A stretch of 56,674 nt of DNA from an uncultured Lachnospiraceae bacterium (lineage in GTDB: Bacteria > Bacillota > Clostridia > Lachnospirales > Lachnospiraceae): the NCBI GenBank assembly GCA_902760415.1, contig CACWGK010000007.1:1-56674 (forward strand), in the 5' to 3' direction. Below, one piece after another: positions 16,904-48,430 of this stretch. Numbering within the stretch: the first letter of the stretch is position 1; every line of letters begins with the position of its first letter. The notes beneath the pieces are model-generated. The model was not told where the DNA came from. It was given only the letters and a program-made list of their open reading frames with translations, and did not search any database. A program made the position numbers and the translations under genes.

Positions 16904-18991
16904 TTATTCCTGTTCAACATCCTTAAGTGAAAGGCTTACCTTACCCATCTCTATACCAAGAACCTTAACTTTAACCTTATCTCCGATGTTTACAACATCT
17001 TCAACCTTCTCAACTCTTTCCTTAGCAAGCTTTGAGATATGGATCATACCATCCTTGATAGGTGTAATCTGAACGAATGCACCAAATGGCATAATTCTTA
17101 CAACTTCACCTTCGTAAACCTTACCAACCTGGATAGGCTCAACGATAAGCTTGATTGTCTTTATAGCATTGTCGATACCATCCTGGTTGATACCACAAAC
17201 TGATACCATACCCTCATCATCGATATCGATCTTAACATCATTTTCTTCAATGATCTGGTTGATCATCTTACCCTTCTGACCGATAACATCACCGATCTTA
17301 TCAGGATCTATCTGAAGTGATACGATCTTAGGAGCGTACTCATTTACAGTCTCACGAGGAGCTGGGATAGCCTTAAGCATGCACTCATCAAGAATGTAGA
17401 AACGAGCTTCTCTTGTACGAGCGATAGCACCTTTGATGATCTCATCTGTAAGACCATGAATCTTGATATCCATCTGAATAGCTGTAATACCTTTCTTAGT
17501 ACCTGCTACCTTGAAGTCCATATCTCCGAAGAAGTCCTCAAGACCCTGGATATCTGTAAGAAGAACGAAGTCATCATCTGTCTCACCAGTTACAAGACCA
17601 CAGCTGATACCAGCTACAGGAGCCTTAATAGGTACACCTGCTGCCATAAGTGACATACATGATGCACATGTTGAACCCATAGATGTAGATCCGTTAGACT
17701 CAAATGTCTCAGATACGGCACGGATTGTATAAGGGAATTCTTCCTTTGAAGGAATTACTGGAAGAAGTGCTCTCTCAGCAAGTGCTCCGTGACCAATCTC
17801 ACGACGTCCTGGTCCACGAGATACCTTTGTCTCACCAACAGAATATGAAGGGAAGTTATAATGATGCATATATCTCTTCTCTGTGATGAAGTCATCAAGA
17901 CCATCAACCTTCTGTGCCTCTGAAAGAGGTGCAAGTGTTACGATATCACAGATCTGTGTTTGTCCTCTAGTGAACATAGCTGAACCATGAACTCTAGGAA
18001 TGATATCAACCTCAGCTGCAAGTGGTCTGATCTGATCAAGTGCACGACCATCTGGACGCTTGTGATCCTTCAGAATCATCTTACGAACTGTCTTCTTCTG
18101 ATACTGATAGAGAGCATCTCCGAGGAAGCTGAGCCATTCTTCGTTATCAGCATATCTTTCCTTAAGCTGATCCTTGAATGCATCGATATTCTTCTCTCTT
18201 GTCTGCTTATCATCTGTAAATACAGCCTCTTCCATAACTTCTGGAGGGATAACTGTCTTAATATCCTCAAAGAGTTCTTCTGGAACTGCATAGCTCTTAT
18301 ACTCGAACTTAGGCTTTCCACACTCTTCTACGATCTTGTCTATAAACTCGATAACTTTCTGGTTAACCTTGTGTGCCTCAAAGATTGCCTCAAGCATCTT
18401 GTCTTCAGGAACCTGATTAGCACCAGCCTCGATCATGATAACCTTATACTTTGTTGAAGCAACTGTAAGGTTAAGATCTGATACTGCAAGCTGAGCAGCA
18501 CTTGGGTTAAAGATAAGGTGGTTATTGATCATACCAACCTGTGTTGTAGCGCATGGACCATCAAATGGGATATCTGAGATAGATGTTGCTATAGCTGAAC
18601 CAAGCATAGCTGTAAGCTCAGGTCTGCACTCTGGATCAACAGAAAGAACTAAGCTCTCGAGTGTAACATCATTTCTGAAATCCTTTGGGAAAAGAGGACG
18701 CATAGGACGATCGATTACACGACATGTAAGAACAGCATTTTCAGATGCCTTACCCTCTCTCTTGTTAAAGCCTCCAGGAATCTTTCCTACTGCATACATC
18801 TTCTCGTTATACTCAACTGAGAGTGGGAAGAAATCGATTCCATCTCTAGGCTCCTTAGATGCTGTAGCTGTTGATAAAACAACTGTATCACCATAGTGAA
18901 TAAGAACAGCACCGTTAGCCTGCTTACCGACTCTGTCTACATCAACTCTAAGAGTCTTACCAGCAAGTTCCATTTCATACTTTTTGAACAT
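16904..18991 (-). CDS. pnp: Polyribonucleotide nucleotidyltransferase
   Basis: PNPase degrades RNA 3' to 5' phosphorolytically. I start at the ATG at 18991, since AAGGAG lies 9 bases before it and family members begin MFKKYEMELAGKTLRVD; an in-frame ATG six codons earlier has the ribosome site inside it. The 695 residues comprise two RNase PH domains separated by a helical domain (FTRGQTQ in the second domain; RGPGRREIGHGALAERAL; SNGSTSMGSTCASCMSL), then a KH domain (IGDVIGQKGKMINQI) and an S1 domain ending VSLSLKDVEQE. It has its own promoter and a strongly folded leader, and is separated from rpsO by aroE-aroK. Confidence 0.97.
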   Translation of the reverse strand: MFKKYEMELAGKTLRVDVDRVGKQANGAVLIHYGDTVVLSTATASKEPRDGIDFFPLSVEYNEKMYAVGKIPGGFNKREGKASENAVLTCRVIDRPMRPLFPKDFRNDVTLESLVLSVDPECRPELTAMLGSAIATSISDIPFDGPCATTQVGMINNHLIFNPSAAQLAVSDLNLTVASTKYKVIMIEAGANQVPEDKMLEAIFEAHKVNQKVIEFIDKIVEECGKPKFEYKSYAVPEELFEDIKTVIPPEVMEEAVFTDDKQTREKNIDAFKDQLKERYADNEEWLSFLGDALYQYQKKTVRKMILKDHKRPDGRALDQIRPLAAEVDIIPRVHGSAMFTRGQTQICDIVTLAPLSEAQKVDGLDDFITEKRYMHHYNFPSYSVGETKVSRGPGRREIGHGALAERALLPVIPSKEEFPYTIRAVSETFESNGSTSMGSTCASCMSLMAAGVPIKAPVAGISCGLVTGETDDDFVLLTDIQGLEDFFGDMDFKVAGTKKGITAIQMDIKIHGLTDEIIKGAIARTREARFYILDECMLKAIPAPRETVNEYAPKIVSLQIDPDKIGDVIGQKGKMINQIIEENDVKIDIDDEGMVSVCGINQDGIDNAIKTIKLIVEPIQVGKVYEGEVVRIMPFGAFVQITPIKDGMIHISKLAKERVEKVEDVVNIGDKVKVKVLGIEMGKVSLSLKDVEQE

Positions 18992-19022
18992 GTTTTGTTT
19001 CTCCTTCATATAATATATACTT

Positions 19023-19128
19023 GATCATACGAGGGTCCGAAACAACTGAACTATTATGAAGCGCATTCATAACACTTCAGTGGTCTCGGCTTGGGAACAG
19101 GAACAGTCTCCCTTCACCTCGCATAATC
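19023..19128 (-). ncRNA. Structured 5' leader of pnp (candidate cis-regulatory RNA)
   Basis: On the minus strand a 12-pair closing stem (19128-19117 with 19034-19023, including G-U pairs) encloses two hairpins. One is at 19112-19093 (GGGA..AC/GTTCCC). The other is a long one at 19089-19037 (CCGAGAC/GTTTCGG, then ACTGAA/TTCAGT, then TTATGAA/TTCATAA around TGCGC). Together they make a three-way junction ending about 30 bases before the pnp start codon. A role in PNPase autoregulation is my inference. Confidence 0.65.
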
Positions 19129-19134
19129 CATAAA

Positions 19135-19163
19135 AGTTTACCATAATAAGGTCTATACTTCAA
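19135..19163 (-). promoter_or_regulatory. Promoter of pnp
   Basis: TTGAAG (19163-19158) and TAAACT (19140-19135) are 17 bases apart on the minus strand. The predicted start of transcription is at the base of the folded pnp leader. Confidence 0.7.
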
Positions 19164-19178
19164 CCGCTATTTAACAAA

Positions 19179-19213
19179 AAATGAGTCATATCCACCTAGG
19201 AAATGACTCATTT
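19179..19213 (-). terminator. Terminator of aroE-aroK, AAATGAGTCA-type stem
   Basis: AAATGAGTCATATCC pairs with GGAAATGACTCATTT (one mismatch) around ACCTA. On the minus strand TTTTTTG follows. It lies 9 bases after the aroE-aroK stop codon and isolates pnp from it. Confidence 0.88.
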
Positions 19214-19221
19214 AGCCTTAC

Positions 19222-20598
19222 TTATTCTGTTATAGAAAAGATGTTTACTATCTCATCTACAGTTTTACCCGATGTATTAATCGTCACATCGCTGGTTGTC
19301 TTATAATATACCTCGCGTTGCTTCAGCATTTCTGAGATTTTTGCCTTCTTTTCTTCTTCAGATAGGCCATTTAAAAGTGGTCTCGCAGTATCATTCTTTA
19401 CGCGTTCATATATAGTATCTACATCCGCCTGAAGATAGTATATCCTGCCGCAATCCTTAAGTAGATTTCTGTTAGCAGTACGGAGCACAGCGCCGCCGCC
19501 AGTAGATACAACTGTATTATGCATAAATCTTATACTATCGATTGCAAATGTCTCTATCTCGCGAAACTTCTCTTCGCCGTCTTCAGCAAATATCTGATTG
19601 ATTGTCCTTCCTTCGCGTTCTACGATATAGGCATCCAGATCTATAAATGACATACCTCTTCTCTTGGCAAGTGCCTTTCCAATCGTAGTCTTGCCTGAGC
19701 CCATATAACCAACGAGAATTATATTGTCTCCATATAATTTCTGGCAAAGTCTCGCATAGGTAAGTCTCGCATCTTCGCCGCTAATCTTAGTATCGAACCA
19801 GTATTCAAATGCAATAATCCCCTGATAAAGCAGCATAGATAGTCCATTATCACTTCTCACGCCAAGAGAGTCCAGCTTCGCTATAAATGGAGTGACCGCC
19901 GGATTATATATAAGGTCATATCCATATTCTGCCATCTTATAAAAGTCATCATCATCTATAACAAGACCATCTGTGTCCTTTAGTCCAAATGATGTGCACT
20001 GAAAGAATATATACTTATCTACAGGAATATCTTTATATTCAGAAAGTCCAAGAGGAGTTATGCAGGATATCTCACTGGCTATCTTCTCAGCCTTTTCTTT
20101 AGTTCTATTAAGAAGGTATATCTTTTCCACACCGGCTTTCTCAAGCATCACGCATACAGCCCTGGCAGCTCCACCAGCGCCTATTATTACAGCCTTCTTT
20201 CCCTCGAGGATAACTCCTTTTGATTCAAGAGCTCTTCTAAGACCCGGCATATCTGTATTGTAGCCTTTGTAGCCTTTATCTATCTTCGATGGAACCAGAG
20301 TATTTACAGCTCCTATCTCTGCAGCCAGGCTATCCACCTCAACAAGAGTCTTCATAACCTCCTGCTTATATGGAACAGTAACATTTAACCCCTTAACACC
20401 TGACGCATAGAGACCCTTTACCGCACTAGCGATATTTGACTCACCATCAGTCTCTGCATTTTCAACATGAATAGGGAGATAAGCCGCATTTATCCCTGTA
20501 AGCTCGCACAAAGTATTATGAATAACAGGTGATAATGTATGTTCTATCGGATCACCTATTACACCTAATATACTAGTTTTACCATTAATCTCTATCAT
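19222..20598 (-). CDS. aroE: Bifunctional shikimate dehydrogenase/shikimate kinase fusion
   Basis: One 458-residue chain carries two consecutive shikimate-pathway enzymes. Residues 1-285 are AroE: LSPVIHN substrate loop, catalytic Lys78 in NVTVPYK, Asp116 in GYNTD, and the NADP loop GAGGAARA. Residues 291-458 are AroK: P-loop GYMGSGKT (297-304), DLDAYIVEREG shikimate-binding region, STGGGAV and the LID residues TARPLLNG. The order dehydrogenase-kinase matches the pathway order (dehydroshikimate to shikimate to shikimate 3-phosphate). The ATG follows GAGGAT. The gene sits between rpsO and pnp, which are usually adjacent, and aroC is just upstream. Confidence 0.95.
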   Translation of the reverse strand: MIEINGKTSILGVIGDPIEHTLSPVIHNTLCELTGINAAYLPIHVENAETDGESNIASAVKGLYASGVKGLNVTVPYKQEVMKTLVEVDSLAAEIGAVNTLVPSKIDKGYKGYNTDMPGLRRALESKGVILEGKKAVIIGAGGAARAVCVMLEKAGVEKIYLLNRTKEKAEKIASEISCITPLGLSEYKDIPVDKYIFFQCTSFGLKDTDGLVIDDDDFYKMAEYGYDLIYNPAVTPFIAKLDSLGVRSDNGLSMLLYQGIIAFEYWFDTKISGEDARLTYARLCQKLYGDNIILVGYMGSGKTTIGKALAKRRGMSFIDLDAYIVEREGRTINQIFAEDGEEKFREIETFAIDSIRFMHNTVVSTGGGAVLRTANRNLLKDCGRIYYLQADVDTIYERVKNDTARPLLNGLSEEEKKAKISEMLKQREVYYKTTSDVTINTSGKTVDEIVNIFSITE

Positions 20599-20673: not shown

Positions 20674-20940
20674 TTACTTTCTAAGACCAAGCTTCTCAAT
20701 GAGTGCTCTGTATCTTTCGATATCCTTACCTTTAAGATAAGCAAGAAGATTTCTTCTCTGACCTACCATCTTAAGTAGACCTCTTCTTGAGTGGAAATCA
20801 TTTGGATGATTCTTGAAGTGCTCATTAAGGTCGTTGATTCTTGCTGTAAGAATAGCAATCTGAACCTCTGGTGAACCTGTGTCATTTGAACCATTTCCGT
20901 ACTTAGCTGTGATCTCAGCCTTCTGCTCTTTAGTAATCAT
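20674..20940 (-). CDS. rpsO: 30S ribosomal protein S15
   Basis: S15 binds the central domain of 16S rRNA early in small-subunit assembly. The 88-residue sequence is full length, with the family core [38 protein letters not shown] and [27 protein letters not shown] precedes the ATG. It has a strong promoter whose -35 box overlaps the last codons of aroC, and a folded leader of about 80 bases suited to autoregulation by S15, as known in other bacteria. Confidence 0.98.
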
Positions 20941-48015: not shown

Positions 48016-48112
48016 ACTTCATTTGAAGTGAGGTCCTCACGTTCGATTCTGCGCCTGCCCAACAAAAAAAACCGCTTACGCGGTTTTTTGTTGGAGCAGG
48101 CGGGAATCGAAC
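48016..48112. repeat. Inverted partial copy of the tmRNA 3' end, with small palindromes
   Basis: On the plus strand 48041-48075 (GTTCGATTC, GCCTGC, CCAACA, then the A run and ACCGC) imperfectly repeats the minus-strand sequence from 48112 to 48080. That covers the T-arm, acceptor end and terminator arm of tmRNA. Next to it are two more palindromes, ACTTCATTTGAAGT (48016-48029) and GTGAG/CTCAC (48028-48040). The copy cannot fold as a tRNA. Confidence 0.7.
48066..48089 (-). terminator. Terminator of tmRNA
   Basis: AAAAAACCGC (48066-48075) pairs with GCGGTTTTTT (48080-48089) around TTAC, extended by CCAACA/TGTTGG outside. On the minus strand an eight-T run is part of the stem. The same hairpin can stop transcription from the other side. 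Confidence 0.88.
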
Positions 48113-48430
48113 CCGCGTCCGAAAGCTCTTCCATTACAGTATCTCCCATCACAGTAAGTGTTTTAACATTCCCTCTACCACACGTCCACTCACAGACTTA
48201 TGATTTCAGTAGCTTGTAATTCTTCCCGAGCCTACAAGCTTCGGCAAGGAAGTGCTCCGTCTGTTCGATACCAGACTCTCACGCAACGGACGACGCGAGG
48301 CTGATAGCTGCCATTAGGCAGCGAGTGCTAATCTATTGTCAGCGTTTATTTTTTTAGATGTTTTTACGAGGTCACCCACCTCGGATGGCTGCCATAATTT
48401 CTAAACCCCCGTCGAAACCAGTACTACCCC
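48092..48430 (-). ncRNA. ssrA: Transfer-messenger RNA
   Basis: tmRNA rescues stalled ribosomes and tags the nascent protein. On the minus strand the 5' end GGGGTAG pairs with the 3' CTGCTCC as acceptor stem. The 5' part continues TGGTTTCGACGGGGG and the 3' part is a canonical T-arm (GCGGGTTCGATTCCCGC). The tag frame ends KINADNRLALAA followed by TAA near 48315; its first residue is not certain. The discriminator A is followed by ACA, so the CCA tail is not fully encoded. smpB lies 0.5 kb upstream in the same direction. Confidence 0.96.

Follow-up and report, generated by a model that had tools for sequence, protein, structure and literature searches.

The messenger RNA of pnp, the gene for PNPase (polyribonucleotide nucleotidyltransferase), is predicted to open with a conserved double-stranded hairpin, both in the window (the whole stretch of 56,674 nucleotides that was analysed) and in nearly all close relatives examined. 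Profile searches found RNase PH domains (PF01138), a KH domain (PF00013) and an S1 domain (PF00575) in the pnp product. The open reading frame listing places the pnp start at 19009, which alignment to relatives moves to 18991 on the minus strand, with the Shine-Dalgarno motif AAGGAG nine bases before it. The genes and the parts of the leader are as follows.

16904..18991, minus strand: pnp (PNPase, 695 aa; NF008805, 945.6 bits; TIGR03591, 919.5 bits).
19001..19006, minus strand: Shine-Dalgarno AAGGAG of pnp, read from the sequence, outside the conserved structure.
19023..19034, minus strand: 3' arm of the outer stem P1, CCTCGTATGATC, from the fold and the P1 arm-swap controls.
19037..19089, minus strand: core hairpin P2/P3, CCGAGAC-C-ACTGAA ... 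TTCAGT-T-GTTTCGG, from the fold, the relatives and covariation.
19037..19043, minus strand: P2 3' arm GTTTCGG, near-invariant by column information content.
19044, minus strand: 1x1 mismatch base on the 3' side (U), from mismatch column statistics.
19082, minus strand: 1x1 mismatch base on the 5' side (C opposite the U at 19044), from mismatch column statistics.
19083..19089, minus strand: P2 5' arm CCGAGAC, near-invariant (P2 columns, mean 1.89 bits).
19093..19112, minus strand: short hairpin GGGA..TCCC, genus-level only, from the fold.
19117..19128, minus strand: P1 5' arm GATTATGCGAGG, with the predicted +1 at 19128, from the fold and the promoter reading.
19135..19140, minus strand: -10 hexamer TAAACT, with TG at 19143-19142, from promoter scoring.
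19158..19163, minus strand: -35-like hexamer TTGAAG, 17 nt spacer to the -10, from sequence and promoter scoring.
About 19175..19213, minus strand: palindromic terminator-like hairpin after aroE-aroK, from sequence and fold.
19222..20598, minus strand: fused aroE-aroK (shikimate dehydrogenase and shikimate kinase; PF08501, PF01488, PF01202).
20674..20940, minus strand: rpsO (ribosomal protein S15; TIGR00952, 132.9 bits).
48089-48430, minus strand: tmRNA gene, the sole above-threshold Rfam match in the window.

The fused aroE-aroK gene separates rpsO from pnp and thus breaks the usual rpsO-pnp neighbourhood; the leader remains with pnp.

Folding of the minus strand from 19128 to 19023 gave a minimum free energy (MFE) of -49.3 kcal/mol (z -7.89), and none of 200 dinucleotide shuffles was as good (mean -23.35 kcal/mol, sd 3.29). 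The plus strand of the same interval folded far more weakly (MFE -30, z -3.19). These values bear out the structured pnp leader that the preliminary description had read by eye at this position, and the fold corrects its details. P1, formed by GATTATGCGAGG and CCTCGTATGATC, has the 12 pairs described earlier, with two G-U pairs instead of four. The long hairpin, previously read as 20 pairs, comprises 22 (7+6+9) and is interrupted by two 1x1 mismatches. The three-way junction that had been described is present here; as a conserved feature it did not hold up, since it is confined to the genus-like loci L001-L020. In the fold of the predicted transcript, the unpaired probabilities of the Shine-Dalgarno motif range from 0.35 to 0.97 over seven positions.

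No T run follows P1 or the core in the sequence, as an intrinsic terminator would have. A terminator scan of the leader found none either, with a scanner that is insensitive and also passed over the terminator-like hairpin at 19175..19213. A search of the leader against Rfam 15 returned no family at gathering score; MIR405, mir-880, mir-7147, mir-8489 and Ms_IGR-7 appeared as sub-threshold matches only (E up to 10) and were rejected.

Relatives were collected by scanning named genomes for the PNPase N-terminus and taking the best 80 of 583 confirmed stretches, a sample that is biased toward close relatives of this PNPase. Their records are titled Lachnospiraceae, carry genus names (Blautia, Dorea, Coprococcus, Eubacterium) or read only Clostridia, Clostridiales or Eubacteriales. 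With L062 excluded (53 nt upstream), 79 usable loci remained, L014 and L018 being two matches in one genome. Among these loci from the best 80 of 583 matches, the core hairpin was found in 77 and was lacking in two (L075 and L089). Its near-invariant halves read CCGAGAC-n-nCTGA and TCAGT-n-GTTTCGG, and 64 of the 79 loci match both CCGAGACnnCTGA and TCAGTnGTTTCGG exactly at normal spacing, again among the best 80 of 583. The loop and the distal stem of the core are free in sequence and length among relatives. L029, with a large loop insert, is counted among the 77 and excluded from most scripted counts, and the start-codon distances and the sense and antisense z values cover 76 of the 77 core loci. 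A median of 45 nt separates the 3' end of the core from the start codon (76 loci). Across the 76 named leaders, the mean z was -7.1 for the sense strand vs -5.4 for the antisense strand, the sense strand being better in 62. Plain DNA similarity to the leader was detected in 17 of 61 genus genomes, own genome included, all 17 with exact core halves; the absence of a DNA match in the other 44 is not an absence of the element.

Two of these loci are unusual in layout. In L029 (UBA7109), a large insert of repeat-like hairpin sequence lies between exact core halves, which are about 250 nt apart. In L041, extra hairpin-rich sequence between the core and pnp leaves 210 nt from the end of the core to the start codon.

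Loci L001-L020 have 26-39 nt of junction on the 5' side of the core. In the 75 remaining loci this junction does not exceed 8 nt, and P1 joins P2 directly or via a small asymmetric loop. Since these 75 loci leave no room for it, the short hairpin is limited to the genus, and on sequence grounds it is, together with the three-way junction that it creates, a genus-level decoration.

Covariation of the core in relatives, which the preliminary description had made decisive for its structure, was found. We aligned 54 of 89 distinct cores (alignment A1, hand-picked; shorter cores were kept and near-duplicates dropped). In A1, 95.0% of cells are paired vs 82.0% after shuffling, 15 of the 22 pairs changed on both sides, and there are 132 double-change cells vs 37 in shuffled alignments. 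All five covariation measures were reached by none of 500 shuffles, which leave relatedness in, so that the result is strong but not a probability. Structures slid along the alignment stay below 50% paired.

Conservation of the letters is uneven along the core. Mean column information is 1.89 bits in P2, 1.51 in proximal P3 and 0.40 in distal P3, and all three are mostly paired. The 1x1 mismatch at columns 8/58 is never a Watson-Crick pair (0 of 54 vs a shuffled mean of 12.1; 0/5000 shuffles); C-A (33) and U-U (14) dominate, and U-G occurs in 2 of the 54. A G-U pair occupies columns 5/61 in 52 of the 54 A1 sequences, which favours an RNA element over a DNA operator.

The sequence of P1 differs between species, yet the arms of the same species pair better than swapped arms. 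With arms defined from the predicted start (32 non-redundant of 46 leaders), own arms paired at -14.0 kcal/mol vs -8.1 kcal/mol when swapped, a difference reached by 0 of 10000 permutations. With 60-nt flanks (69 of 93 loci), the values were -18.2 vs -12.2 kcal/mol (0/5000). The outer stem thus co-varies between species, in agreement with the earlier reading of a closing stem. The signal is noisy per species: the own partner ranked first in 12 of 69 loci with 60-nt flanks, and in 6 of 32 with start-defined arms (third or better in 19 of 32). Given these modest ranks, the support for P1 is collective and not leader by leader. If only strictly contiguous helix is counted, the median length of P1 is 7.5 pairs (76 of 92 loci).

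The pnp-proximal promoter, TTGAAG-17-TAAACT with TG before the second hexamer, gives a predicted +1 at 19128, the first base of P1. It has 8 of 12 consensus matches, which is below the threshold of a plain promoter scanner that accordingly did not list it, and was identified by sequence reading and a promoter score devised in this analysis. The hexamer TAAACT is found again in other members of the genus. Measuring -10 positions from the foot of P1 yielded no sharp peak, since that foot was truncated both by the strict helix rule and by the folding window; leaders were folded from their predicted starts instead. Six or all seven P2 pairs form in 66 of the 68 non-redundant leaders (from 93) folded in this way. 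Pairing begins within the first six nucleotides, with a partner across the core, in 42 of the 68, including 37 of 49 strong-promoter leaders; in 26 of the 68 the 5' end is not paired across the core in this manner. Predicted transcripts start with GATTG in 22 of the 68. That the RNA begins at the foot of the structure, as proposed in the preliminary description, is therefore supported as a prediction by the promoter reading here and in many relatives. The element is also retained in relatives without a convincing promoter of their own (e.g. L084, L088 and L092). Capping of the 5' end by P1 would hence not be general, and the element probably acts on upstream read-through too.

The exact core pattern occurs in one copy in its own genome. 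In the order, covariance model R1 matched 93 of 392 genomes, 92 being from its own family with the own genome counted; in the phylum it matched 5 of 398, four of them within the family. This R1-positive family is inferred to be Lachnospiraceae from the record titles of the same contigs. Directly upstream of pnp lie 42 of 44 fetched R1 match loci, and six weak matches in the family (G318, G326, G247, G340, G438 and G178) adjoin pnp by coordinates. The two matches outside the family, G079 (L252) and G631 (L133), were dismissed as chance: each is an AT-rich or terminator-like hairpin, and the stretch fetched around it contains no pnp. Surveys with R1 and with the two further models R2 and R3 score 14 to 19 candidates per genome, so that a missing match does not equal absence.

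The class A core, as we call the hairpin described so far, was not seen by eye in 13 family genomes without an R1 match; several of these have pnp 72-125 nt behind rpsO. Its absence there and in 2 of the 79 loci makes the element dispensable. Five of the 13 show a different long hairpin (L136, L149, L150, L151 and, weaker, L140), and the long mismatched hairpin before pnp in L149, L150 and L151 is possibly a further spelling of the same device. Loci L149-L152 belong to one genus of the family, in which the class A core was not seen in four genomes.

Differently spelled hairpins precede pnp in other Clostridia, for which 84 pnp upstream loci were fetched of the 171 genomes with a match. The halves of class B read TTTAGCA-G-TTA with TAA-G-TGCTAAA, and those of class C GTAGATT-G with G-AATCTAC. 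Simple motif rules divide the 84 loci into 13 class C, 4 C-like, 9 class B, 9 B-like and 49 with neither. By folding alone, 43 of the 84 have, close to pnp, a hairpin of at least 24 pairs that no T run follows; these are not necessarily control elements. Alignment A2 (13 of 14 class C rows, and L197) has 93.9% of its cells paired, and 28 double-change cells vs 9.3 shuffled (0/500). In alignment A3 (16 of 22 distinct class B-like loci), 91.8% of cells are paired, and there are 29 double-change cells vs 9.4 shuffled (0/500). Weaker measures are less clear-cut: further pair types were reached by 132 of 500 shuffles in A2 and by 11 of 500 in A3, and double-changed pairs by 43 of 500 in A3. Classes B and C mostly have G-G as the mismatch (11/16 and 13/14, respectively).

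R2 matched 29 and R3 matched 52 of 291 genomes of the class. Every R2 locus (29) and every fetched R3 locus (30) was located at pnp, including those of 15 R2 and 16 R3 genomes outside model building. Of the other 22 R3 genomes, 13 were placed by coordinates, 12 with the match adjoining pnp and one with it off pnp; in that one, G1028, the R3 match (C1:3732377) is far from the R2 match (C1:2346970) and was taken as off pnp. Classes A, B and C thus have a shared architecture with clade-specific spelling, a likeness in build, homology aside.

Further leaders depart from these classes. A class D-like leader (L198, L200, L207 and L169) pairs TTAGC-CA-TTAGA with TCTAA-GT-GCTAA, a 2x2 internal loop replacing the 1x1 mismatch. 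L199 and L220 have long pnp leader hairpins with a GGTCAACAGAAG-like pattern, outside classes A-D. Inspection by eye of 30 phylum genomes of other classes revealed little comparable. Hairpins of at least 20 pairs were seen there in L323 and L349. As pnp leaders, the hairpins of L332 and L334 were rejected for their resemblance to rpsO terminators, those of L325 and L341 for lying within the rpsO coding sequence, and that of L346 for overlapping the pnp start.

By analogy with E. coli, we think it probable that RNase III cuts the leader and that PNPase represses its own expression by way of this site. Of the features of this functional class, those open to sequence analysis were found: a structured RNA upstream of pnp, a long mismatched stem, an RNase III gene in the same genome (TIGR02191, 232.4 bits; cut-off 166.25) and a PNPase with KH and S1 domains. 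The pnp mRNA would open as a rod consisting of P1, an internal loop, the 7-pair P2, the fixed 1x1 mismatch and the long P3. RNase III would make a staggered cut in this rod and remove its tip, leaving a short 5' RNA bound to the new mRNA 5' end via P1 and lower P2. PNPase would digest this short RNA from its new 3' end and so expose the processed mRNA, which in this phylum may decay by 5' exonuclease or RNase Y. The level of pnp mRNA would then fall as PNPase rises, which is what is reported for E. coli. Where the cut is made is probably set by the internal loop and the mismatch.

RNase III generally requires shape, not letters, and the near-invariance of P2 therefore exceeds what cleavage needs. 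It suggests that a protein also reads the duplex sequence, or that cleavage must be very precise. This remainder leads to the rival of a sequence-reading protein, which would bind the P2 duplex and the mismatch and repress translation or stability without cleavage. Candidates are PNPase itself, RNase III acting as a binder, and another RNA-binding protein. Such an operator would account for the contrast between 1.89 bits in P2 and 0.40 in distal P3, both mostly paired, and for a mismatch that is never Watson-Crick in 54 sequences. KH and S1 domains usually bind single strands, however, the Shine-Dalgarno motif lies outside the structure, and the long variable P3 stems suit a nuclease substrate better than a compact operator. 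An operator without cleavage thus seems to us rather unlikely, even with the precedent, in a passage of PMC10362022 and a reference title in PMC7509114, that E. coli PNPase also acts on its own mRNA in ways independent of its phosphorolytic activity. The broader idea, that Clostridial PNPase is controlled by duplex operators read by sequence, is one we put forward tentatively. On that idea a module of about 7 pairs, a 1x1 mismatch and a long stem would be kept while its spelling is replaced as a unit (CCGAGAC, TTTAGCA, GTAGATT). If true, the spelling would co-evolve with its reader, be it PNPase, RNase III or an unknown factor.

The remaining explanations fit the same data less well. A 5' end held in P1 could passively shield the pnp mRNA from 5'-end-dependent decay, and the predicted 5' end does enter P1 in 37 of the 49 strong-promoter leaders; the near-invariant letters of P2 and the kept mismatch would go unexplained, and the element also occurs in leaders without an evident promoter of their own, which makes passive stabilisation improbable. 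We consider it very improbable that the leader is an S15 leader (an rpsO-type three-way junction) or a small-molecule riboswitch. An upstream rpsO and the three-way junction in this genus would suit these, but the junction is not conserved outside the genus, the loop and distal stem vary freely in length and letters, and no Rfam leader or riboswitch matched. As regards S15, aroE-aroK lies between rpsO and the element here, the element goes with pnp, and 31 of 83 element loci have no same-strand rpsO in the flank examined, some flanks being short. Finally, the core halves form a near-perfect inverted repeat, as would a DNA-level operator, an intrinsic terminator or a mobile element. Against this, 52 of 54 sequences have the G-U pair at columns 5/61, so that the two half-sites consistently disagree as DNA, and compensatory changes keep the RNA pairs. 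A terminator is contradicted by the missing T run and by the scan that found none (the aroE-aroK hairpin being passed over as well), and a mobile element by the single exact copy in the genome and by fetched matches that are almost all at pnp. We give these DNA-level readings hardly any credence. Cleavage by RNase III with feedback by PNPase remains the reading that we prefer, and it has parallels in known systems.

PNPase autocontrol is a standard case of an enzyme controlling its own mRNA and was worked out in E. coli. The E. coli rpsO-pnp leader is reportedly the site of this RNase III/PNPase autocontrol (Jarrige et al. 2001). In the same folding as used here, the E. coli rpsO-pnp spacer forms an outer stem, internal loops and a long stem. 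Both leaders lie just upstream of pnp, with their own promoter, a predicted one here, after rpsO, and rnc is present in both genomes. They differ in that no core sequence is shared by eye, that sraG is annotated on the opposite strand in E. coli, and that the near-invariant 7-pair segment and the fixed mismatch belong to the leader described here. As to mechanism, the E. coli pnp 5' UTR is described as being cut by RNase III, followed by faster decay (in part of PMC5371410), and PNPase as digesting the short protecting RNA (in part of PMC10362022).

The preliminary description supposed that a comparable structure would be new in Firmicutes, which the pnp 5' UTR of Streptococcus pyogenes contradicts. 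The section of PMC6431027 concerned describes RNase III-dependent cleavages in it, citing Le Rhun et al. 2017, and suggests PNPase feedback by the same mechanism. What is alike is the stem-loop in the pnp leader of a Firmicute, which in S. pyogenes gives RNase III-dependent RNAs of 22 and 30 nt; unlike here, no conserved core is described in that section of PMC6431027, and the two leaders are set side by side by description only. For P. acnes, staggered RNase III cuts in the pnp leader are mentioned in a passage of PMC3848588. With E. coli, Streptomyces and S. pyogenes, it is among the bacteria in which cutting of the pnp leader by RNase III and feedback by PNPase are reported or suggested.

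Actino-pnp (RF01688) is listed in a portion of PMC2864571 as a pnp leader motif of Actinomycetales. It is a named cis-regulatory motif and, like the present element, came from comparative genomics. It differs in belonging to another clade, and its model has no match here: an Rfam search of the leader with E up to 10 did not bring up RF01688, and a search of the own genome with it gave 0 matches at E <= 10, a search in which no control genome passed the cut-off. We take the Actino-pnp motif to be the same as the intergenic hairpin of S. coelicolor. According to the relevant passages of PMC10126417, RNase III cleaves that hairpin at a 4/4 internal loop, and an rnc mutant has 2-4 fold more PNPase activity.

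Searches of open-licence PMC full text listed no description of these Clostridia elements, and pnp is absent from the main text of a large survey of structured RNAs in the human microbiome (PMC8040213). The analysis yields three covariance models and cut sites that can be tested, and it offers a way to annotate the pnp leader in these genomes. The clade-specific spellings on the same architecture constitute a natural experiment on what RNase III and PNPase read in double-stranded RNA. Taken together, the comparison suggests that the Clostridia leader is a parallel to the known RNase III/PNPase pnp leaders, with its own near-invariant sequence and no Rfam match, and that such a parallel device may serve many Clostridia, among them almost every Lachnospiraceae-like locus that was examined by gene.
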